This document shows, piece by piece, positions 5,040 through 46,448 of a stretch of 64,000 nt of DNA. The DNA is from Candidatus Heimdallarchaeota archaeon. Lineage in GTDB: Archaea; Asgardarchaeota; Heimdallarchaeia; Hodarchaeales; Hodarchaeaceae. Within the stretch, counting starts at the first letter, position 1. Each line of letters opens with the position of its first letter. The translations under genes were made by a program, and so were the position numbers. The notes under the pieces are model-generated. The model saw only the letters and a program-made list of their open reading frames with translations, was not told the DNA's origin and made no database searches. The DNA lies in NCBI GenBank assembly GCA_011364965.1, contig RDOB01000007.1, positions 62,001-126,000 of the forward strand, given 5' to 3'.

Positions 5040-5513
5040 TTATACGCTATAATTCTTAAGAATATCATCAGCCCAGGCGTTTGCTCGTTCCAATTCCCCC
5101 TCTTTCAACGGGCCTTTTCGTCCTTTAACAAAAAATGCTTCTGGTGATATTATTAGTCTTCCATTCTTTTTCCTCAAATTATCAGCAATTTTTCCAGCAG
5201 CATAGCCGAAGATTTTGACTAATCTTGTAGATAATCTCGTATCGAACGCAGCAACATTTATATCTTTCATACTAGCCTCTGGAATTTGGTTAAGAAAGTC
5301 TTGTATCGCTTCTGTAGGACTGCCTCCATGCGTTGGTGAACCAATTATTAATAGCTTCAATCCAATTAACTCTGAAAGATTTACACTGTTTACTCGAACT
5401 ATTTTAGTGTCCATTTGGATCTTTATGGCATTTCTAATTGCTTTAGCTATTTCTTCTGTATTTCCATAAACTGAATCATAAATTATCATCGCTTGCATCA
5501 GGATATACCTCAT
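5040..5513 (-). CDS. Flavodoxin-like protein
   Basis: A 157-residue protein with the FMN phosphate-binding loop YDSVYGNTEEIA near residues 12-23, the loop GSPTHGGSPTEAI near residue 58 and the motif AAFDTRL near residue 88, all typical of short-chain flavodoxins. It would carry electrons or act as a small FMN oxidoreductase in the cytoplasm. The true start may be the third Met (MIIYDSVYGN), since the preceding residues are not conserved in the family. A redox partner is not obvious nearby; two tiny membrane proteins follow on the same strand. Confidence 0.82.
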   Translation of the reverse strand: MRYILMQAMIIYDSVYGNTEEIAKAIRNAIKIQMDTKIVRVNSVNLSELIGLKLLIIGSPTHGGSPTEAIQDFLNQIPEASMKDINVAAFDTRLSTRLVKIFGYAAGKIADNLRKKNGRLIISPEAFFVKGRKGPLKEGELERANAWADDILKNYSV

Positions 5514-5600
5514 TTTTACTACTCATAATCTCAATTATGGAGGTAGGAAAATCCTTTTTTAAGCAGCATTATGATAAGAAAATTTTGAATCTGAGTAATT

Positions 5601-6323
5601 TCATTTCATCTGTTCTACTGGGTGGAAAAGGAATGTTTTTTCTATTAAAGTGTAAATAATACTTAGAATTGCCAAGATTGTAAAGCTAATCAATGTTAAT
5701 TCTAATGTATTCGTTAGTATTATAAATATGACAATATAAACATGACCATGGGAAACAGGCTGTGATTCTTGGAATAACCAACTTGTGTAAATAGATATAA
5801 TCGTGAGAAAACCAAGAGAGCTCAAAGTAAGTGCAATTAAAAACCATACATTGAAACCCCATATCTCTGATGTATATGTTGTAATATTTAATCCTGCTCC
5901 AATCCAGAAAAAGATTCCCTTGGCATATTCAAGGACAGAATCCAACCATTCACCTTTTCTGCTACTGCATTGTCGTTTTCTAGCTAATTGTCCATCAATG
6001 CAATCCATCAGTGCGGATAACCAATACAATAAACTTGCGATCACCATATAAGAATAATCTAGGGCTCCTAATACTATTGCTATTGAACTTAGAATGGTTA
6101 GAAGCAAACCAAACCAAGTGATCCTATTTGGTGTAATTAAAGAAAATGGTTCTATAAAGGTTACAATAGGTTCTGCGATTTTCCTATGGAAACCAATAAC
6201 AGGATCTTCCTTCTTATAGCTGTGTCTTGAGCTTTTCTCTCCATTTGCCTTACCCATAGTTAATTTGGAGACTATATATTTCAAACTGTACTTATCATGG
6301 ACTTTCAATAAATCATGTTCCAA
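5601..6323 (-). CDS. CDP-alcohol phosphatidyltransferase family protein
   Basis: Joins a CDP-activated lipid or head group to an alcohol in the membrane. The signature D-x2-DG-x2-AR-x8-G-x3-D-x3-D is present at residues 107-132 (DCIDGQLAR, then GEWLDSVLE), except that the last Asp is Glu132. In this family that last Asp is the proposed catalytic base, so the substitution is notable. About six transmembrane spans follow an N-terminal polar segment of about 55 residues. SSRKGE after the AR resembles eukaryotic choline/ethanolamine phosphotransferases more than bacterial PgsA, but that is by eye. It stands alone; PlsY-type synthesis genes are at 47-50 kb. Confidence 0.83.
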   Translation of the reverse strand: MEHDLLKVHDKYSLKYIVSKLTMGKANGEKSSRHSYKKEDPVIGFHRKIAEPIVTFIEPFSLITPNRITWFGLLLTILSSIAIVLGALDYSYMVIASLLYWLSALMDCIDGQLARKRQCSSRKGEWLDSVLEYAKGIFFWIGAGLNITTYTSEIWGFNVWFLIALTLSSLGFLTIISIYTSWLFQESQPVSHGHVYIVIFIILTNTLELTLISFTILAILSIIYTLIEKTFLFHPVEQMK

Positions 6324-6721
6324 GATAATTTGCCCCTAGTTTTAACGAACGAAAAAAAATTCATTTTCTCTGATTTATAAATCCTCCATTTTAGTATTAT
6401 AAGGTATAATAGCTTATGACTTCACACTTGATTTAACATCAATTTGATTTTGATATCATTGCAATGTTTTGAAATAATAGTTGAAATCCTATCTAAATCT
6501 GTAATATAAAGCATATTTACTTGCTTAAGGACTTTAAATACTAAGTTAAAATACAATGTTGAACACAGGTTTGATTAGGTTTTTACAGGAATCTGGAATT
6601 TTAAAATCAAAAACTTCTTAAAATTTAAAACTATCACTTTTTCAAACCTTTCTCTATGAATTATTTTCATCACAATAATCTTTTTGACATTTAGCCCTTT
6701 TAGAAGGGAAAAGAGAGGAGA
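6324..6721. other. Gene-free AT-rich stretch
   Basis: Roughly 400 bases between a minus-strand lipid gene and a plus-strand gene pair. TATA-like elements (TTTATAAAT near 6370, TATAAGGTATAAT near 6400) may serve the CDP-alcohol transferase. A 65-codon minus-strand frame at 6575-6772 has no ribosome binding site or protein-like composition. No RNA gene recognised. Confidence 0.4.
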
Positions 6722-6979
6722 ATGGGTATGAGTGAGTTTGTAAATGAGTACCTGATACATTGAATTAAACAAACTAGAAAAATCACTTCCTATGAGACTG
6801 CAATTGAGTATGATCGCAAGTCAGGAAAAGTAGTGGGTTATCACATATTTGAACCAGAACCCGTGATTACATCCCAATCCTCGCGAAAAGGTTTGAAACA
6901 ACGATTGAGGGCAAAAAAACTTTCATCTGATGATAATGTTTCTGTTCAAAGTGGATTAGTAGTATGGAAACCTCAATAG
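6722..6979 (+). pseudogene. Small gene with an in-frame TGA at codon 14
   Basis: ATG at 6722 has an excellent ribosome binding site (AGAGGAGA just upstream). It reads 13 codons to a TGA at 6761-6763, then continues open in the same frame to TAG at 6977, overlapping the start of the next gene (ATG 6964). The continuation is protein-like, including YETAIEYDRKSGKVVGYH. The stop is one transition from TGG, so LIHWIK is a plausible ancestor. It may be a nonsense mutation, a sequence error, or two separate frames. The overlap with the following zinc-binding protein gene suggests an ancient coupled pair. Function unknown. Confidence 0.45.
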
Positions 6980-7356
6980 GAACCTTCTTCGCCTTCGATC
7001 CTCAAATGCTAAGTAATCCTCCTCGAAGAGAGTTAGATAAAGTTTTTGAAAAGCCAAGGATGCTAGATCCAAATCCAGATTTAGAGAAATATATGGAAAC
7101 TTTTTTTCAAGATTTTCAAGTAATAGATACACTGAAACGTCGGCGTTTAGTTTGTTCTGTATGTTTGGCGCCGATTGAAGAAGATCAATTCATCGTTTTA
7201 CCCCATCCGCAATATCCTGAGGATCCTTCTAAAGTGTCGTACTTCCATTCTAAAAGGAATTGTTCACTGCGTTCAAAGAAAGTCAAGACCGTAAGAGGCC
7301 ATTGGTTGAAAACACGACTTCAGCAGTCAGCTGAAGTATGTAAGGAGGAGGAATGA
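6964..7356 (+). CDS. Hypothetical protein with a CxxC zinc-binding site
   Basis: A 130-residue protein with no recognised family. The N-terminal half is acidic and helical. The C-terminal half has CSVCLAP (about residue 61), then an FHSKRNC segment about 30 residues later, giving a possible Cys2-His-Cys zinc knuckle, and a basic stretch KKVKTVRGHW. Its start overlaps the end of the broken small gene before it by 16 bases in another frame, which suggests translational coupling. It is soluble with no signal peptide. A nucleic-acid or protein adaptor role is possible but unproven. Confidence 0.5.
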   Translation: METSIGTFFAFDPQMLSNPPRRELDKVFEKPRMLDPNPDLEKYMETFFQDFQVIDTLKRRRLVCSVCLAPIEEDQFIVLPHPQYPEDPSKVSYFHSKRNCSLRSKKVKTVRGHWLKTRLQQSAEVCKEEE

Positions 7357-7474
7357 GTTCTCTATACTAGACTTAAACCATTTTAGAAAGAAAATTAGTA
7401 AGAAGTCTTGAAAATTTTCCATTTCCATGTCCCTGGGGAAATTAGAGAATTGTACCGTTTTGGCACCATTGGGA

Positions 7475-8791
7475 CTAAAAATCAGTGATAACATCCAAGG
7501 AGGTAGAGTGTTTATTATTTGATATAAGCTGGTTTAAAAAAATATATGGGAGAAAAGCGCCAAGAAGAAAACCAATTTCTACAATAAAGAGTAATGGAAA
7601 TGACTTATAAACCATGATTAGACCAGCTATTAAACTAGCAATTGATCTGCCGAAAGTGGATATTAAACCAAAAAAAGCCAAAAGAAATGTTCTTGACTGA
7701 GATTCAGAGCAAATATTCAACATTAAAGTAGTGGAAGGGGTAGTAACAAGTCCTGCTCCAGCTCCGAAGATTCCTATACTTATTAAGAAGAGATTCTGTA
7801 AAGAAATAATATCTGGTATTCCACCTTGGGTTGCTCCTATACCTATGAATGTAACTAAGAGAAGTCCTAAACTTGAAACACATACTCCCAGCAAAATAAC
7901 ATATGAAGTGCTAGTCCGCTTCTCTAATACTAATGCTAATGGGATAAAGATTAAGGTTGTAGTTCCCCATATCGCTGCAACTCTCCCAATATTTCCCTCT
8001 GAGAATGCTAGGATCTTAATTGCGAATGGTTCTAGAACAGCATCCTGAGCAAATAAACCAATCAAAAAGAATAGTAAAAACAAACTCATTAAAATTACTT
8101 GTGAATTCATTACTTGATGAGTTGATAACTGTATCGTCTCACGAATAGGATGTACAACTTCTGATTTGGCTGATTTATCCTCTTTGATTAGTAAAGCAGG
8201 TAGTACTCCCAGAAGTATGCTTAAGAAGCCAAGACTGATGAAAAATCCTTCAAATTTTAAGCTTCCATAAAAAATCGCTCCAAATATTCCACCAAGTGCA
8301 TATCCGAGTAATCTAAAGAATTGAATCGCACCGGCAGCTTGCCCTCGTGATAGTTCATTAGTTTTATCGAGTAAGTAGGCATCTGACATTGTTGCAACAA
8401 TAGCTGAGCCGATAACAAACCCGATCATTCCTATCAAGATTAGAATCGACCCTAATACCTGAGAGATTAGAAATAAACCTAAAGTTTGTATCAATAGCCC
8501 CAACATGACATAAGATCGGCGATTAGATCCAAATAATGGAAAATTATCTCCTAAATATCCTATAACTAATCTAAAAAGCTCAAATAGTGTAGTAATTCCA
8601 ATGATAAATGCTATTGTCGTTGTTTCCCACCCAATAATCGCGAGCTGTGCAGGAATAAATGTATTGATACCAATTACCCCCACACTGACTCCTATATGCA
8701 CAATGGCAATTCCCACTATAGATGATAGGCCTAAGTATTCAGGTTTGGTATTTTGGATCAATGAGGGATGTGAATCATACAAATTAATCAC
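7475..8791 (-). CDS. Major facilitator superfamily transporter
   Basis: A 438-residue protein with about 12 hydrophobic spans, in two sets of six separated by a polar loop (about residues 200-225) containing KEDKSAKSEVVHPIRE. Loop motifs of MFS type such as GYLGDNFPLFGSNRR (after span 2) and RGQAAGAIQFFRLLGYALGG are present. The pattern resembles the BCH/PucC group of MFS proteins, but no pigment genes are nearby, so the substrate is unknown. It lies alone, 178 bases from the threonine deaminase on the same strand. No regulatory site was recognised. Confidence 0.8.
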   Translation of the reverse strand: MINLYDSHPSLIQNTKPEYLGLSSIVGIAIVHIGVSVGVIGINTFIPAQLAIIGWETTTIAFIIGITTLFELFRLVIGYLGDNFPLFGSNRRSYVMLGLLIQTLGLFLISQVLGSILILIGMIGFVIGSAIVATMSDAYLLDKTNELSRGQAAGAIQFFRLLGYALGGIFGAIFYGSLKFEGFFISLGFLSILLGVLPALLIKEDKSAKSEVVHPIRETIQLSTHQVMNSQVILMSLFLLFFLIGLFAQDAVLEPFAIKILAFSEGNIGRVAAIWGTTTLIFIPLALVLEKRTSTSYVILLGVCVSSLGLLLVTFIGIGATQGGIPDIISLQNLFLISIGIFGAGAGLVTTPSTTLMLNICSESQSRTFLLAFFGLISTFGRSIASLIAGLIMVYKSFPLLFIVEIGFLLGAFLPYIFLNQLISNNKHSTSLDVITDF

Positions 8792-14265: not shown

Positions 14266-14586
14266 CTATAAGGGCTGTTTACAATAAGGACAGTACTTCT
14301 TTGTCGCGAGCCATCTAAGCATATGCTCTTGGTGAGCTTTTTGATGGCAATTTGGGCATTCCATAATTTTATCTACATCTTTATAAGAATCTATTGGTTT
14401 CCAACATATCATACAACGAATTTTTTCAAATGGATCCCATTCACCAATTGTTTTTCCTTTTAAAATGAATCTTGTTTGATTTGACTTATTTTTCGTCAAA
14501 CTAGCCCAAAACGACCTATCAGGAGTTGAATTTTTACTCATCAATTGTGAAGGACGTAAAATATATTTATTATTCTTATAAGACAT
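14266..14586 (-). CDS. Small RING-type zinc-finger protein (candidate E3 ligase)
   Basis: The C-terminal 50 residues carry a RING-like cross-brace: CMIC, then MECPNCHQKAHQEHM, then RWLATKKYCPYC. The CPxC end and the H-x2-H centre match RING-H2 fingers and the small RING proteins reported from Asgard archaea. It would bind the E2 and promote transfer of the Ubl. I chose the start MSYKNNKY (14586) because AAGGATGG lies 8-9 bases upstream; an upstream start at 14628 would overlap the previous gene by 38 bases. The N-terminal 50 residues are basic and probably disordered. The preceding gene encodes a coiled coil whose stop is 4 bases from this start. Confidence 0.82.
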   Translation of the reverse strand: MSYKNNKYILRPSQLMSKNSTPDRSFWASLTKNKSNQTRFILKGKTIGEWDPFEKIRCMICWKPIDSYKDVDKIMECPNCHQKAHQEHMLRWLATKKYCPYCKQPL

Positions 14587-14590
14587 TGTT

Positions 14591-14971
14591 TTATCCATCC
14601 TTATCGATCTGATCATGCAATTTCTCAAGTATTATAGCGAGTTCTTCTTTTAATGCAACTAAATCTGCTTTTTCGATCATTAGATAAGATGAAGCTTCTG
14701 ATTGTAACTCTTGCACTTCCTTCTCCTTTTTGGCCATATAATTGACAAGATTGGCTATTGAGTTGCCAATCGAAGACAGGATATCACTTTGTTTGTTAAT
14801 TATTTTATGCAATTCTACTATCTGTTCATTTATTCTTGAGAAGTCTTTTTCAAAATCAGTTGAATCTGGTTTTACTAAATTTATAGCTGTTTCGAGACCT
14901 TTGATCGTAGGTACTTCCCCTTTAGGAGTCTTAAGGGTTTCGATTTCAACTTCTCGGGACTCTTTTACCAT
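14591..14971 (-). CDS. Coiled-coil protein, first gene of the RING cluster
   Basis: A 126-residue acidic, almost wholly helical protein with heptad-like spacing across residues 35-120 (SRINEQIVELHKIINKQSDIL, then EKEVQELQSEASSYL). No catalytic motif or membrane segment. It is the leading gene of a minus-strand unit with the RING protein (4-base spacing) and a third unknown protein. A dimerising scaffold for the RING E3 is a reasonable guess. It begins within GAGTCTTTTACCATTTG on the plus strand, where no clear ribosome binding site is seen, so it may be leaderless. Confidence 0.55.
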   Translation of the reverse strand: MVKESREVEIETLKTPKGEVPTIKGLETAINLVKPDSTDFEKDFSRINEQIVELHKIINKQSDILSSIGNSIANLVNYMAKKEKEVQELQSEASSYLMIEKADLVALKEELAIILEKLHDQIDKDG

Positions 14972-16668: not shown

Positions 16669-16902
16669 ATGCAAATTACCATTGTTCAAGCCATTGGCGG
16701 CGGAGAAATAACTCTGGATTGTGAAAAAACAAACTCAATTGCTGCGATTAAAGATCAAGTTGCCCGAGAGAAAAAAATTCCTGCTCGCTCCGTCATTTTA
16801 GTATTCCAAGGAAAACAATTAGATGAAAGTGAAACATTGAAATCTGCTGGAATAGAAGATATGGACAAACTTTACATGATCACACGGACAACAGGAGGAT
16901 AG
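16669..16902 (+). CDS. Ubiquitin-like protein ending in Gly-Gly
   Basis: A 77-residue beta-grasp protein aligning with ubiquitin along its whole length: MQITIV against MQIFVK, IKDQVAREKKIP at the helix, LVFQGKQLDES against LIFAGKQLEDG, and a C-terminus RTTGG. It ends exactly with GG, so no peptidase is needed to mature it. K49 matches ubiquitin Lys48 and K28 matches Lys27, whereas the Lys63 position is Asp64 and the Lys11 position is not Lys. R73 matches Arg72, used by E1s. AAGGA lies 8 bases before the start. The E1 gene follows 33 bases downstream, so the two are likely co-transcribed. Confidence 0.95.
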   Translation: MQITIVQAIGGGEITLDCEKTNSIAAIKDQVAREKKIPARSVILVFQGKQLDESETLKSAGIEDMDKLYMITRTTGG

Positions 16903-16935
16903 ATTTTAAAATAGTTTTTTCTCGTCCTACTCCAT

Positions 16936-17931
16936 ATGAGCGGGAGATACCATAGACAACAATTAATTGATAAATGGGATCAAGAAAAGGTTACTGAAAG
17001 TACAGTAGCAATTATTGGGATGGGAGCTTTAGGTACGGTCGCTGCTGCCTCACTAGCCATGGGTGGTGTGGGTCATTTAATTTTGGTTGATTTAGATACA
17101 GTTGAAATAAGTAATTTAAATCGGCAGTTATTCTATCGAAGTACGGATGTAAATAAACCTAAAGTTGAAGTAAGTGCAAAAATTCTAGAGCAGATTAATC
17201 CTGATATTAAAATTACTCCGCTCAACATGCCAATTGAGGAAGTTTCAACAGAAATTTTATCAAAATGCAACGTAATTGCTGCAGGTCTGGACACATTTCA
17301 AACTAGAAGATGGGTTAATTCCTTCGTTGTGTCTCACAACATTCCCTTAGTTTCTGGAGGAATGTATGGCTTCTATGGAAATATTCAGGTTATTATGCCA
17401 AAAGAAACAGCTTGCATAGAATGTCAAACACTCATTCCTGAACATGAATTACAAAAGGCTTGCACACCATTCGGGGAGGTTCGAAAAGCAATTAGAGGGG
17501 AAGAGGAAGTAGATGCATATCAACCTGCTGTATCTAGCGTTTCGTTTGTTATTGGGGGTTTAATGGCTCAAGAAGTATTTAAAATAGTTTTAGGACTAAA
17601 ACCTCTTTCTGAATACTTATTCTGGGATGGAGATGCTGGAGTTTTTACTTCCTTGGCATTACAAAGGCGTGAAAATTGTATTATATGTTCAGATCATTAT
17701 CAACTTCGCGAAACAATAATTCACTCCCCCTCAGACCAAACCCTCCTAGATTTTGCCAATCAATTGCGCTACTCCTTTAATCTTGGTCCAAATATGCGAA
17801 TTCTCTATAAAGCTAAAGAAATCGCTCTTACAAGTGATTACATGAATACAATTTTCCAATCTGGAGCAATTTTTCGTGTAGTTGACCCTTTACTCTCTTT
17901 CCCGGCCAAATTCAAAGTAATTTTGGATTAA
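16936..17931 (+). CDS. Ubiquitin-activating E1-like enzyme
   Basis: Adenylates the Ubl C-terminus and holds it as a thioester. The nucleotide site is GMGALG (residues 28-33), with VDLDTVEISNLNRQ (51-64), the Arg and Asn that contact ATP, and the Lys in NKPK. C160/C163 and a second CIIC near residue 252 form a zinc site as in E1s and MoeB. C176 in KACTPFGE is the likely thioester cysteine, matching the ACT motif of eukaryotic E1s. The last 60 residues (DQTLLDFANQLRYSFNL onward) look like a ubiquitin-fold domain for E2 recruitment. At 331 residues it is a homodimer-type or single-domain E1, close to Uba3/Uba2 but shorter. Confidence 0.92.
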   Translation: MSGRYHRQQLIDKWDQEKVTESTVAIIGMGALGTVAAASLAMGGVGHLILVDLDTVEISNLNRQLFYRSTDVNKPKVEVSAKILEQINPDIKITPLNMPIEEVSTEILSKCNVIAAGLDTFQTRRWVNSFVVSHNIPLVSGGMYGFYGNIQVIMPKETACIECQTLIPEHELQKACTPFGEVRKAIRGEEEVDAYQPAVSSVSFVIGGLMAQEVFKIVLGLKPLSEYLFWDGDAGVFTSLALQRRENCIICSDHYQLRETIIHSPSDQTLLDFANQLRYSFNLGPNMRILYKAKEIALTSDYMNTIFQSGAIFRVVDPLLSFPAKFKVILD

Positions 17932-41357: not shown

Positions 41358-41765
41358 TCAAGCTTCCTCCCATGCCCAAACACCTACTTTTCGCCAACGG
41401 CAATACGCCCAAATCCAGGTTTGAATCATCAGAGCTGCATCGTAAGCAGTGAAAGAGAAATGCCAGTCTTTTTGTGGTCTTAAATAGCAAATTTCAGTAT
41501 GGCCATATTCATCGGTACCATACACATGGTGAGTCTTCGCAGCTATTCGTGGTTTTGTAATCCAGGCCCTAGGAGGAGCGGTAGGATAGTTATGGGGAAA
41601 TTCAATCAAGACATGAAAAGTACCACAGGCAAAGCTTCCAGTAGTGACATATTTCACCTTTACACAGATATTACCGTTTTCTAAACGATAAAAATCATCC
41701 CGAGTTAACCCAGGAAATACTCCTTGTAATTCATGTAGTTCCTGTTCAACTGTACGATCATACAT
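41358..41765 (-). CDS. Bacterial-type E2 (UBC-like) protein B, catalytic Cys93
   Basis: A 135-residue E2-fold protein close to its neighbour. Shared elements: FACGTFHVLIEFPHNYPTAPP (central strands), HHVYG, the catalytic EICYLRPQKDW (Cys93) and the C-terminal helix WIWAYCRWRKVGVWAWEEA. The motif CYLRP-x2-DW and the Trp-rich tail are typical of bacterial E2-like proteins encoded beside E1 and JAB genes, not of eukaryotic E2s. It is the last gene of the operon, 17 bases after E2 A. Both copies keep the Cys, so both may be active, perhaps with different targets. Confidence 0.83.
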   Translation of the reverse strand: MYDRTVEQELHELQGVFPGLTRDDFYRLENGNICVKVKYVTTGSFACGTFHVLIEFPHNYPTAPPRAWITKPRIAAKTHHVYGTDEYGHTEICYLRPQKDWHFSFTAYDAALMIQTWIWAYCRWRKVGVWAWEEA

Positions 41766-41782
41766 TTTGATTCATCCAATTT

Positions 41783-42238
41783 TTATAGAAAATGGTTCCA
41801 GAATCCTGCTTCTGGAAAACCCCAAGAACCCGTTTTTGTCCAGCGACAGTATGTTTTGAGCCAAACCTCAACCATTTTTGCAGTTTCATACGAAGTATAG
41901 GATAAATGCCAGTCTTTTTTGGGACGTAAGTAGCATATGAGGGCATGGCCTTCTTTATCCCATTCATACACATGAGGTGTTTTTTCGGGGATTTTAGGTT
42001 TTTGTACCCAAACCTTAGGAGCATTAATAGGATAATTATATGGGTATTCAATAAGAACGTCAAAATAACCACATGCATATTTACCTGTGGTAATAAAGCT
42101 AATTTGAACGCAGTAATTACCATTTGCCAATTGCTGAAAGTCCTGCTCCTTAACACTGGGAAAAAGCTTTTGCAAGGGTTTCAATTCCCGATCTGAAATT
42201 CTTTGGCGTAATGACAAGTTTGAAGCTCCATAGCTCAT
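41783..42238 (-). CDS. Bacterial-type E2 (UBC-like) protein A, catalytic Cys102
   Basis: A 151-residue E2-fold protein, a tandem paralogue of the next gene. It has YACGYFDVLIEYPYNYPINAP, HVYEWDKEGHALICYLRPKKDW with Cys102, and WLKTYCRWTKTGSWGFPEA. The start codon overlaps the E1 stop (TAATG), so translation is coupled. Relative to the E2 at 10.9 kb it lacks HPN and the DPLN tail, and the family is different. Which modifier it carries is unknown, as no Ubl gene is adjacent. Confidence 0.85.
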   Translation of the reverse strand: MSYGASNLSLRQRISDRELKPLQKLFPSVKEQDFQQLANGNYCVQISFITTGKYACGYFDVLIEYPYNYPINAPKVWVQKPKIPEKTPHVYEWDKEGHALICYLRPKKDWHLSYTSYETAKMVEVWLKTYCRWTKTGSWGFPEAGFWNHFL

Positions 42239-43497
42239 TAATCAGGATTGTTAATATCTGAAGAGAAATTAGGAACTGACGATGTGCTGTGAAAAGGACA
42301 GGTAGGATCAGTGGTCAAATCCTCATAATAATAAAGCTCAAGACCATCATACTTAATGGCAGTTTGATCTGAAGTTTTGATAGTACGATTATACCACATA
42401 TAGAAGTTGTAAGGAAAATGATACAATCCATGGGGAATTCCTGTTAAAAGTAAATCCAAACAGAATTTTGCTAATAGTAAGGTTAAGTTATCCACATCTA
42501 ATCCCAATCCTGGTTGGGCAAGCTGTTCTTGCAAAGTGCGGTCGTATGTAATTTTGTGTTCTAATTCGATAGTGGTCGGTATAGAGCTAGAACCAGTCTC
42601 AGGTTTGGCATAGACACAATGATAACAATAATCTCCTTTCCGCGGGTCAACCTTAAACATTAAACCTCCTTTTACTCCAGCAAATGTTCCTGCATATACT
42701 AGGGGAATGGCTAATTGATTGGTATGAACGAAATCATTGATCGCATAATTGACATCGTGCTCTCCAGAAACAGCAGCGATTAAATCTATTCCTTGGAGTG
42801 ACTCAAGGAAGAAATCAAAGTCTTTTTTGGTATGTAAAACGAACTTCTGTTCTATAGTTTCAATTTGAACATCAGGAATTCGAGCTAGGATATAATCTTT
42901 CACTGCTCGAGTTTTAAAGCGACCAAGTTGGGACAGATCGCAAATATGACGAATAATATTGTGAGTCTCAAGCAAATCGTCGTCGATAAAGATAAAGTTT
43001 TTCACTCCAGACTTAGCAAGATATAATGCTAAAAGCGATCCTCCAGACCCCATACCAATGATAGCTACTTTTTTCTTCTTCAACTCTCCTAAGGGTGTTT
43101 CTTTTTGATCAATTCGGACAAATAAGCGATCTAAATTCACAAATTCGAATTCAACTTCAGTATTACCTTCTGAGAGATAAAACCTGAATTTAAGATTGAT
43201 AAAATCTTTAGTACTAGTTGCATGAAGAAAAGGAAAATTAAAAATCGATTGAAGCTTAGAAACATCAAGAGGAGAGTCCTCTAAAGTTAAGACACCGATC
43301 GATTGGGGAGATTGGACAGTAGTCAAGCCAGTAACATGATAGAGAGTATAATCATCAAAATATCGGCCAGAAAGCCACAATGTTGAACTTTTAGCAATCT
43401 GTTTTCTTTTAACTTGATAATCATGTTTAAATGACGGATAAACTAGAATTTTAAGAGGTTTAGCAAAGGTCAATTCAACCCCTCCATTATTTTCCAT
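42238..43497 (-). CDS. ThiF/E1-like activating enzyme with N-terminal domain
   Basis: A 419-residue E1-like enzyme. The first 135 residues form a separate beta-rich domain of unknown function. The adenylation domain has AIIGMGSGGSLLALYLAKSG (148-153 glycine loop), FIDDDLLETHNIIRH with the ATP-contacting Asn-x2-Arg, GRFKTRAVKDYI, and a half zinc motif CYHC near residue 288. A catalytic Cys is not obvious. This form matches E1s of bacterial E1-E2-JAB gene clusters rather than the eukaryotic-like E1 at 16.9 kb. It overlaps the JAB gene by 28 bases and E2 A by one base. Confidence 0.87.
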   Translation of the reverse strand: MENNGGVELTFAKPLKILVYPSFKHDYQVKRKQIAKSSTLWLSGRYFDDYTLYHVTGLTTVQSPQSIGVLTLEDSPLDVSKLQSIFNFPFLHATSTKDFINLKFRFYLSEGNTEVEFEFVNLDRLFVRIDQKETPLGELKKKKVAIIGMGSGGSLLALYLAKSGVKNFIFIDDDLLETHNIIRHICDLSQLGRFKTRAVKDYILARIPDVQIETIEQKFVLHTKKDFDFFLESLQGIDLIAAVSGEHDVNYAINDFVHTNQLAIPLVYAGTFAGVKGGLMFKVDPRKGDYCYHCVYAKPETGSSSIPTTIELEHKITYDRTLQEQLAQPGLGLDVDNLTLLLAKFCLDLLLTGIPHGLYHFPYNFYMWYNRTIKTSDQTAIKYDGLELYYYEDLTTDPTCPFHSTSSVPNFSSDINNPD

Positions 43498-44435
43498 AAA
43501 GGTTCGGATAATAATTCCAAAACTTCACCTTCAAGAGAAGCTTTGAGTGAAAGTAAAAATGGATGGAGTAAATCCGGGTCTACCAGTAAATTTGCCGGAT
43601 GTTTTTCAACAGTAAAGTTCCGAGACATATCAGAAGATGAGATATCTATGTATAATTGACCCTCAGGAAAATTAGACGGAAAAGAAAGAAGAACCAAAAC
43701 ATTCACAGAAAGTTCACTCCCCTCAACGATAATAGTAAATTTATAGGGGAATGAGATAATTTTTTCTCCCCGAGTAGATCCAGGAAACTCCTGAATGTCG
43801 TTTAAAGTAAAAGTAGTGTCAAATACTTCAATTAAAGCTTCTTTTATGGGAAGAAGTTGTTCAGGTAAGATTCCTATCGGTTTTAGCGGGGAAATCTCCA
43901 TACCCGCGGACATAATTCTGATATTCGACACAGGAATCCGTAATGTTTCAAAATTAGCACTACTAGGTTCCGTTGCCAAAGCTTGGTCTCTTCGATATAA
44001 TTCAATGATTACTTCAGGATCTGAATCTGGAAGAAAATCCACTATTAGGGCAAGAATTAGGTTCCTATGAGGATTCAACATAAAAAAATCACTAATTTCC
44101 CCATGATCCCTATGACTGGGCCCTCCATATCCAAGATGTTTGTGCCAATTCCCTAAATATAGTGTTGTTTCTTGTTCTAGGAGCTGTTTTGCATATTCGG
44201 GATCAATTTCGAAATACATATGTTCTCGAACAGCAAGATTGTCGGGTGGTATTTCCATCCTCTCAATGCAGATATCTAATCCCCCATTAATATTTCGAAT
44301 GGTTCCAAATAGCATTCCTCCAGTTTCCCTTCCTACCCATTTGGTTGCTTCTTCAATAATCTGGTCATAGATATCTTGACTTAAATATAGAAAAATACTG
44401 TCCTCTGGTTCAGGAAACATCAAAACTACCCTCAT
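43470..44435 (-). CDS. JAB/JAMM metallopeptidase fused to an RWD/UEV-like domain
   Basis: A 321-residue predicted deconjugating peptidase. The JAMM zinc site is complete: Glu37 in RETGGMLFG, H98-x-H100, S107 and D110 in WHKHLGYGGPSHRDHGEI. After residue 180 a second domain looks like an RWD/E2-related fold (FPYKFTIIVEGSELSVNVLV, then LSFPSNFPEGQLYIDIS), which could bind the E1 or an E2. A start at 44420 (MFPEPEDS) is possible because GAGGG lies upstream of it. It is the second gene of the operon, 38 bases after the peptide gene. It may mature a modifier or remove it. Confidence 0.85.
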   Translation of the reverse strand: MRVVLMFPEPEDSIFLYLSQDIYDQIIEEATKWVGRETGGMLFGTIRNINGGLDICIERMEIPPDNLAVREHMYFEIDPEYAKQLLEQETTLYLGNWHKHLGYGGPSHRDHGEISDFFMLNPHRNLILALIVDFLPDSDPEVIIELYRRDQALATEPSSANFETLRIPVSNIRIMSAGMEISPLKPIGILPEQLLPIKEALIEVFDTTFTLNDIQEFPGSTRGEKIISFPYKFTIIVEGSELSVNVLVLLSFPSNFPEGQLYIDISSSDMSRNFTVEKHPANLLVDPDLLHPFLLSLKASLEGEVLELLSEPLWKIMEGLN

Positions 44436-44473
44436 TGGTCTAGAGTGTATATCAAGGAAAGATAAGAAAGAAT

Positions 44474-44575
44474 CTAGTAATGCTTTGAGATTGGAACTGT
44501 ATCTACATTCTTTTCAGCATCTTCAGTCGCATTTTCTTTTGTTTCAGTATCTACGCGTTTAACAGGTCGAGGCAT
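44474..44575 (-). CDS. Small 33-residue peptide leading the JAB-E1-E2-E2 operon
   Basis: A 34-codon frame with ATG at 44575 and TAG at 44474-44476. A strong ribosome binding site AGGAG (complement of 44584-44588) lies eight bases upstream. The peptide begins MPRPVKRVDTETKENA, continues acidic (TEDAEK) and ends PISKHY, with no Gly-Gly tail and no transmembrane segment. It is 38 bases before the JAB gene. Its position suggests a substrate or accessory of the conjugation genes. It is too short for a beta-grasp fold and I recognise no family. It could alternatively be a leader peptide controlling the operon. Confidence 0.6.
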   Translation of the reverse strand: MPRPVKRVDTETKENATEDAEKNVDTVPISKHY

Positions 44576-44616
44576 ACTTTTACACTCCTAAAAATTGCAG
44601 GTATACAAAAAAATTC

Positions 44617-44634
44617 TGAATTTATTAAACTTTA
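44617..44634 (-). promoter_or_regulatory. TATA-like promoter of the second conjugation operon
   Basis: On the minus strand CTAAAGTTTAATAAATTC lies about 45-55 bases before the 33-codon gene. A purine-rich BRE-like AAAG followed by TTTAATAAA is a good match for an archaeal promoter. A start about 25 bases downstream would leave a leader of about 25 bases holding the AGGAG site. Confidence 0.4.
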
Positions 44635-44727
44635 GATATGAGACGAGGTGATTGCAGAGAAATGAACGCAAAGGCCTCCATAATTTCAGCAGTTATGAGA
44701 AAAATGTTTCTAACGAGAGAAAAAAGT

Positions 44728-46234
44728 TTATACCAGCTTCTTGCGACTTCTGTAATTTAGAAGGATTATAAGAAGAATAAATATTAGAAGAAACAATATT
44801 CCCTCCAAAAAATAGAGAGGTTCCTCCGAGAAAGGAGGAATGATTGTAGGGGAACAAGAACAAAGGAAGAAAATATTTATACACGGAAAAGAATAAGAAT
44901 TTTGAGCTTCTCCAGGAATTTGATAAGCAGAATCTATAATTCCATCATTATTATTATCAATTGCGATCCAGTCATCCCAGTAATTGCAATAAAAAGAGTT
45001 ATTAGTACCATCATCATATCCCTGAACAGGGTTACTCAAAAAAGCGTAGAAACAGATTATATTATTACTAGAAAGAGAATCAATAAATTTACCTGGATCA
45101 GTACTATTGACAATAATATTATCAGAAATTAGGTTTACGCTAGAGGAACGTAAAATTATCCCTTCATTCTTACTTGTATTAACAATGTTCTCTCTTAAAA
45201 GGCATTCATTAGAATTTAAGAGTTGAATACCCCTATAAGTACACAAGAGAGAATTATAGGTGACATTGATTTGCGTGCAAAATAGAATCGTGACACCATA
45301 AGAATTACACAAACTCTGATTTGTAATTGCGATATTCACACAATTTAATAGGACAATCTGCCCCATATTGGGTGGAACAGAAAGATTAGCTTACTCCAGC
45401 CAGAAAATGATTAGCTGACCATTAAAATAATTATGACAAACTTCAAGCTGACGAATAAAGGAAAGATCGGAACCTAAGATCATAAATCCACTCTGAAGGA
45501 ACTTATTATTCCGAATCGTATTATTTGCTGAAAGTGAAAGATAAAGCCCTAAAATGTCATTAAAAAGAAATGAATTGTTAGTAATCAAGTTATAATGGCA
45601 TACTAGAAGGTTAAAACAACAATTACCACACCCTGATATTGTATTATTGATAAAAGAAAGATTAGATGCTAAGGTGGCACTTACACCAATATAAAAAGCC
45701 TCAGAAACTAAATTATCCATAATAGTAATATTATATCAAGGTCTTAGCTCAATCCCTACAAAACATTCAATGAAAGAATTATTGCAAATCAACGAATTAT
45801 TGACCCCAATAAGGTTCACATCAGTGCTACTATAAGAGAGATCAAAATAATTAGAAGAAAGTCCACCATGAGTGCAATTCGCAAGATAGACCCCAGGATG
45901 TTCTCCAAAATAACACTGGAAGAAGTGAAAATAGATATCCACATTCACCAAGGTTATCATATTGCCAGAACCGTCTGAAAAAGTTCAATCCTGAATAAGA
46001 ATAGGAGCTTTAGCAGAACCATTACCTTACCAGCCTTCAATTTGCGCCATGGATATGAAATAATCATTACCATTGATAAATATGGTAGAATGAACTTGAT
46101 AGGAAGAGGAGGAAGATTGAGTAAGGGTAGATCTTTTTAAAAAAGGAAAATATTGAGTTGAGAACGCTGAAGAATGGATAAGAGATAAAAAAAATGACAA
46201 GAACGAGAAAACAAGAGATATAGAAACGTTTCAT
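44728..46234 (-). pseudogene. Broken right-handed beta-helix (NosD-like) surface protein gene
   Basis: One frame of about 500 codons encodes a signal peptide, parallel beta-helix repeats rich in Asn (NNSFLFND, NNTIRNNKF), a terminal domain (YCNYWDDWIAIDNNNDGIID) and a C-terminal transmembrane helix with a basic tail. It is interrupted by in-frame stops TAA 46027-46029, TGA 45985-45987, TGA 45736-45738 and TAA 45391-45393. A one-base deletion in the run after ATG 46234 is needed to join the start. All stops are one transition from Trp or Gln codons and no other indel is seen. It may be recent decay, or consensus errors. Intact relatives would be cell-surface proteins. Confidence 0.72.
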
Positions 46235-46448
46235 ATATCTCAATCTTTACTCTCAAGCTACCTAAATATTCATCCATGACTTGCAATAACAATACAAAAC
46301 TCAATTAGCAGAATTGTTTGTCTAGAGAAGATGAAACGGAAGCAAACCAGAGGTTATAGATGATCTTACGATAATTTATTTAATTACATATTTATAGATG
46401 GGGTGTTAGTGTTTAATAAAACATAAAGACGGGAGATTTTATTACCAT

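Follow-up and report, generated by a model that had tools for sequence, protein, structure and literature searches.

The accepted view of ubiquitin-type cascades is that the protein they handle ends in a small residue and is either a beta-grasp protein or, as in CBASS, a large enzyme. Archaeal ubiquitin operons, such as the Ub-E1-E2-RING-Rpn11 operon of Caldiarchaeum, carry a beta-grasp ubiquitin or ubiquitin-like protein (Ubl) ending in or near Gly. The modifier Pup is about 64 aa long, has a C-terminal GGQ or GGE, and is ligated by PafA, not by E1 and E2 enzymes. In CBASS, Cap2 (E1/E2) uses a lone C-terminal Gly/Ala to conjugate the non-ubiquitin protein cGAS, which the JAMM enzyme Cap3 takes off again; conjugation was lost when the terminal Gly of E. 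coli cGAS was changed to Ser, Val, Arg, or Trp (PMC10097602). The enzyme MccB activates a heptapeptide that ends in Asn; if the final residue is Gly instead, the acyl-AMP is open to direct capture by thiols (PMC13255007).

The window analyzed here, the whole stretch of 64,000 nucleotides, corresponds to bases 62001-126000 of contig C16 in a 2.97 Mb genome of the Hodarchaeales. This order belongs to the Asgard archaea; no prokaryotes more closely related to eukaryotes are known. The Hodarchaeales have been reported as the eukaryote sister group (PMC10307638). The window contains an operon with the following features:

44474..44575, minus strand: gene of a 33-aa peptide, product MPRPVKRVDTETKENATEDAEKNVDTVPISKHY; open reading frame with ATG, 33 codons, and TAG; first in the operon
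44585..44589, minus strand: Shine-Dalgarno sequence AGGAG, 9 nt before the ATG
44620..44636, minus strand: probable archaeal BRE/TATA promoter, AAAG-TTTAATAAA with the element itself at 44621-44633, ~50 bp upstream of the ATG
43470..44435, minus strand: JAB/JAMM metalloprotease with a C-terminal RWD/E2-like alpha/beta region (Prok-JAB, E=1.5e-5)
42238..43497, minus strand: E1-like ThiF adenylating enzyme with an N-terminal JAMM-like domain without catalytic residues (ThiF, E=4.5e-25)
41783..42238, minus strand: E2-like enzyme a (E2a), catalytic Cys102 in ICYLRP (UQ_con, E=0.0012; PADLOC E2 models, E to 7.5e-9)
41358..41765, minus strand: E2-like enzyme b (E2b), with the same Cys invariant (UQ_con, E=0.00046; PADLOC E2, E=1.5e-9)

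The enzymes are recognisably of the E1-E2-JAMM kind, and the peptide may be what they conjugate. The JAMM motif (E37, H98xH100, S107, and D110) is invariant in all seven aligned copies. The model of the JAMM protein (mean pLDDT 71) matches most closely Caldiarchaeum Rpn11-Ub (Z 14.6) and also Cap3 bound to CD-NTase (Z 13.8); most of the coverage of this structure search fell on residues 7-181, and the C-terminal part, in which the order of helix, strand meander, and helix appears by eye to be that of RWD or E2 domains, rests on fewer matches. The nucleotide-binding motif of the E1 is present, with GxGSGG, D172/D174, N180, R183, and K195 invariant in the alignment. The crossover-loop cysteine, which the genome's four other E1s all have, is missing from all seven operon E1s. 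Three invariant cysteines (291, 294, and 400) look like a zinc site (CxxC...CPxH). In the E1 model (mean pLDDT 63), the adenylation domain matches Uba1 (Z 11.2) and Cap2 (Z about 10; 10.1), while the N-terminal domain (residues 10-190) resembles MPN/JAMM proteins, namely chain B of the KIAA0157/BRCC36 complex (5cw3, Z 10.1) and a COP9 signalosome chain (Z 8.8); the search covered mainly residues 128-328, and the N-terminal domain rests on fewer matches. When the E1 profile was compared with PDB sequences, ThiF, PaaA, MccB, and Cap2 were the closest solved relatives. Cys102 in the motif ICYxRP is invariant in all 14 copies of the two E2s. As a side observation, the operon JAMM and the E1 with its inactive MPN-like domain could pair like Rpn11 and Rpn8.

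The peptide is present in 7 of 12 genomes of one Hodarchaeales genus, including Candidatus Hodarchaeum mangrovi and other Hodarchaeota/Heimdallarchaeota genomes. Relatives of the JAMM gene were found in 7 of the 12 genomes, each with the same peptide directly upstream, and this co-occurrence in seven of seven genomes speaks for a modifier role. Gene order and strand (peptide, JAMM, E1, E2a, E2b) are constant in the seven loci, and the only genes common to all of them beside the peptide are those for the JAMM, the E1, and the two E2s; no exporter or immunity gene is among them. The five genus genomes in which the operon is missing are mostly incomplete. Neither the peptide nor the JAMM gene was found in the other genomes searched in the class, the peptide had no convincing match in any other of the 227 genomes searched in the phylum, and no homologue of it was found outside the genus. 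Phylum-wide peptide matches with E of 0.01-0.04 were of partial coverage, lay inside longer frames, and were judged to be due to chance. Virus or plasmid cargo was rejected since viral contigs contained no relative of the peptide or the E2, and plasmids gave only weak ThiF matches of the E1. Identity to the window proteins is 85%-91% for the peptide, 43%-49% for the JAMM, 55%-63% for the E1, 62%-75% for E2a, and 77%-80% for E2b. No other protein of the operon is as conserved as the peptide, a pattern usual for a modifier, which has to fit an E1, an E2, a protease, and targets.

Judged from its substitution pattern, the frame at 44474-44575 (minus strand) is a genuine protein-coding gene. In the alignment of seven copies, 28 of the 33 residues are invariant, and the 32 variable nucleotide columns are distributed over codon positions 1, 2, and 3 as 6/1/25 (chi-square P=3e-7). 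Pairwise comparisons with the window copy revealed 12-15 synonymous and 5-6 nonsynonymous changes, which corresponds to dS of 1.0-1.9, dN of 0.07-0.085, and dN/dS of 0.04-0.07, synonymous sites being near saturation. The same number of changes placed at random would be expected to alter ~12-13 residues versus the 3-4 observed, and to introduce a stop codon about every second time; no frameshifts or internal stops were found in the seven copies. The check on relatives for random substitutions or frameshifts, suggested in the sequence-only reading, was thus passed by the gene. A tblastn search of the frame against the related loci gave E to 2.5e-17. One copy starts with TTG. Since the length floor of Prodigal is 90 nt, a frame of 102 nt is penalised but not excluded by its length.

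The C-terminal sequence VPISKHY is invariant and is followed by an extra Ser in one copy (ending KHYS). Glycine occurs nowhere in the peptide, in agreement with the earlier view that a modifier of this sequence would not be of the Gly-Gly type. The residues F, W, L, C, and G are all missing, and there are 6 K+R and 7 D+E. Because of this composition and a length half that of a beta-grasp domain, the peptide is probably disordered and would thereby present its C-terminus. A beta-grasp Ubl was ruled out on the grounds of length (33 residues versus about 65-75), composition, the lack of a ubiquitin-family match, and the lack of a Gly or Gly-Gly tail. No Pfam family matched the peptide at the gathering score; a match to DUF5633 (E=0.064) was below the family cut-off and was attributed to chance. 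Searches of solved structures gave chance matches only, and a search of PHROGs gave none.

The GGAG site and the AAAG-TTAATAA box keep their sequence and distance nearly unchanged in the seven aligned loci. The genes upstream of the operon differ, with a similar membrane-protein gene in three loci and other genes elsewhere. Since the promoter and the ribosome-binding site are kept despite different upstream genes, the peptide gene stands out as the first gene of its own transcription unit. Most of what the sequence-only reading had stated about this region holds: conservation in seven loci bears out a real short gene tied to the JAB/JAMM operon, TTTAATAAA preceded by AAAG stands where a TATA-like element had been placed ~50 bases upstream, and the tight spacing to the JAB gene amounts to 38 bases from the peptide stop to the JAMM ATG. 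The AGGAG was also correctly identified, but lies 9 rather than eight bases before the ATG. Upstream of the operon, at 44728-46243, a NosD-like beta-helix region is split into several frames and probably represents a decayed surface-protein gene.

The operon resembles type II CBASS in that an E1, an E2, and a JAMM act, or in the Hodarchaeales are proposed to act, on a C-terminus that is neither Gly-Gly nor part of a beta-grasp protein, and in that the folds of its JAMM and E1 match Cap3 and Cap2, respectively. Unlike type II CBASS, the E1 and E2s are encoded by separate genes, the partner has only 33 residues and a C-terminal Tyr, the E1 lacks the crossover cysteine, and neither a CD-NTase nor an effector is present among the operon genes; no nucleotidyltransferase (CD-NTase) match was found among the operon proteins, for which PADLOC gave only E1/E2/JAB-type matches. 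The same enzyme set occurs in the Caldiarchaeum operon and in the Ubl-E1-E2-JAMM cluster L073 of the window genome. However, these archaeal operons carry a beta-grasp Ub or Ubl and the ubiquitin-type E1s of the window genome have the crossover cysteine, whereas the 33-aa peptide takes the place of the Ubl in the operon described here. Pup is similar as a short, probably unstructured modifier, the role proposed for the peptide, but the latter has no GG[QE] tail and the ligases of its operon are of the E1/E2 type.

The operon contains no beta-grasp ubiquitin or Ubl, and its E1 lacks the crossover cysteine; both oddities point to the peptide as the E1 substrate and hence as a modifier. According to the reading we favor, to which we give an even chance, the peptide is a protein modifier, an unstructured non-glycine tag: a cysteine-less, MccB-like E1 would adenylate it, an E2 would take it over, and the JAMM would remove it. 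This proposal builds on features read from the sequences, namely coding selection, operon membership, intact JAMM and E2 residues, the absent E1 cysteine, and the absent beta-grasp partner in the operon, and from them we infer adenylation, transfer, conjugation to targets, and release of the peptide. The E1 would adenylate the C-terminal carboxylate of the VPISKHY tail, as MccB does with MccA, and the acyl-AMP of the peptide would pass straight to the conserved E2a or E2b cysteine. We know of no described route in which an E1 without a catalytic cysteine feeds an E2. One of the E2s would then attach the peptide to a target, and the JAMM would cut it off and may also trim a precursor residue, as the copy ending in KHYS suggests. 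A bulky C-terminal Tyr would be unusual, given that bulky residues blocked conjugation in E. coli CBASS, which counts against a modifier; either the E1 pocket differs, or the tail is trimmed first.

Ordinary ubiquitin systems are also encoded in the genome, which has at least four Ubls, and each of its three ubiquitin/Ubl-type E1s has a Ubl of its own next to it. At 16669-17931 of the window, a 77-aa ubiquitin ending in TTGG (16669-16902) is followed by its E1 (16936-17931). A RING-finger-like protein is encoded nearby at 14266-14628 (minus strand). Locus L073 (3167-4062, G000:C1) is a Ubl-Ubl-E1-E2-JAMM cluster in which the tandem Ubls end in PHSTAG and PVSTAG, and locus L074 encodes a Ubl ending in IKGG with an E1. 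The second tandem Ubl has an extra Tyr in the window genome (STAGY) and an extra Leu in another (loci L073, L077-L085); the tandem Ubls thus have a single-Gly tail with extensions that a JAMM enzyme could trim. The likeness of the VPISKHY tail to IPVSTAGY of the genome's Ubl (P-x-S six residues from the end) is marginal (shuffle P ~0.03-0.045).

These Ubls bear on the main rival explanation, that the enzymes conjugate an ordinary Ubl encoded elsewhere, and that the peptide serves a JAMM-E1-E2 complex as a small non-covalent subunit or regulator, comparable in role to Sem1/Dss1 in the proteasome lid or CSNAP in the COP9 signalosome. Several Ubls are available for such a role, but each of the others sits with its own E1, and the five genus genomes without the operon still have Ubls. 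An active JAMM together with an E1 resembling inactive MPN proteins makes an MPN+/MPN- pair plausible, and constant operon membership and strong conservation would fit any obligate partner. However, the peptide is not acidic like Sem1 and CSNAP, judging from its near-equal numbers of basic and acidic residues, and its C-terminal residues are as conserved as any, which suits C-terminal chemistry. We regard this explanation as unlikely, at about one chance in a few.

The peptide could also be a RiPP-type precursor, the C-terminus of which is modified by the E1-like enzyme, with the JAMM releasing a small product. The arrangement is reminiscent of microcin C MccA/MccB, where a cysteine-less ThiF/E1-like enzyme is encoded beside a very short peptide gene with a non-Gly C-terminal residue, and the ThiF-like enzymes MccB and PaaA, which act on short peptides, score among the top PDB matches to the E1 profile. 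MccB operons, however, have no E2 or JAMM, and their product is an antibiotic peptide-nucleotide, while the Hodarchaeales cluster encodes a pair of E2s and contains none of the exporter, immunity, or other biosynthesis genes expected of an MccA/MccB-type RiPP. Moreover, conservation spans the whole peptide, beyond a core or leader, and no relative was found in other lineages, in plasmids searched with the E1, or in viral contigs searched with the peptide and the E2. A RiPP precursor therefore appears improbable.

A leader peptide or attenuator, whose translation rather than product regulates the operon, had been offered as an alternative in the sequence-only reading. The gene is indeed short, lies directly before the JAMM gene, and has a promoter directly upstream. 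But amino acids, those of the VPISKHY tail included, are under strong purifying selection and codons are free to vary, as indicated by the low dN/dS relative to the window copy and the near-saturated synonymous sites; the bases separating the peptide stop from the JAMM start show poor conservation in the seven aligned loci, there is no run of regulatory codons, and no terminator-like stem was found in 44400-44800. This alternative was rejected on the grounds of selection at the amino-acid level, and its probability is very small. A chance open frame has a negligible probability: the size of the frame alone is unremarkable, because 113 frames of 25-70 codons occur in the 14 kb between 38 and 52 kb of the window, but among these controls only the peptide frame is conserved in related loci without overlapping the E1, E2, or JAMM gene, and this control, the tblastn matches, and the codon-position pattern rule chance out.

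Other short frames stand at the head of a related E2 or E2-E1-JAMM set in three distant Asgard genomes:

L039:318-461 (G076:C192): 47-aa frame ending in FKHQVWY that has a GGAGG site and opens an E2-E1-JAMM operon
L041:1611-1772 (G044:C341): 53-aa frame ending in ITIQGGQFA, immediately followed by a 278-aa protein whose C-terminal domain is E2-like
L061:5127-5528, within 5127-7885 (G205:C76): 133-aa protein with three ~40-residue repeats VVYIDEEGNVIS...AIRDNLGEF, directly before E2-E1-JAMM

A single copy of the VVYIDEEGNVIS repeat unit is present on the E2-E1-JAMM contig of a fourth genome (G217, L090, about 406-555), so that this unit is common to G205 and G217. The putative 133-aa protein resembles a polyubiquitin-like precursor that would give a short non-ubiquitin peptide. 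The E1s of the operons in G076, G205, and G217 also lack the crossover-loop cysteine. Homology of the Hodarchaeales peptide to the short peptides of G076, G044, and G205/G217 was not detected, and the recurrence of a short-peptide-first arrangement in distant Asgard operons is suggestive.

No description of such a peptide was found in the literature searched, which mostly did not extend to subscription journals, and there is no mention of it in the retrieved passages of the Asgard ubiquitin-ESCRT paper. We tentatively propose, with somewhat less than even confidence, a Hodarchaeales cascade with a 33-residue, glycine-free, unstructured modifier, a cysteine-less E1, and direct transfer of the acyl-AMP to an E2, possibly one of several Asgard short-peptide systems, one of them with a polyubiquitin-like tandem-repeat precursor. 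If this is true, an E1-E2-JAMM cascade would need only a tail and not the beta-grasp fold, it would be found in the Hodarchaeales, whose genomes also hold ordinary ubiquitin systems, and the operon would provide a clean test case for E1-to-E2 transfer without an E1 thioester.
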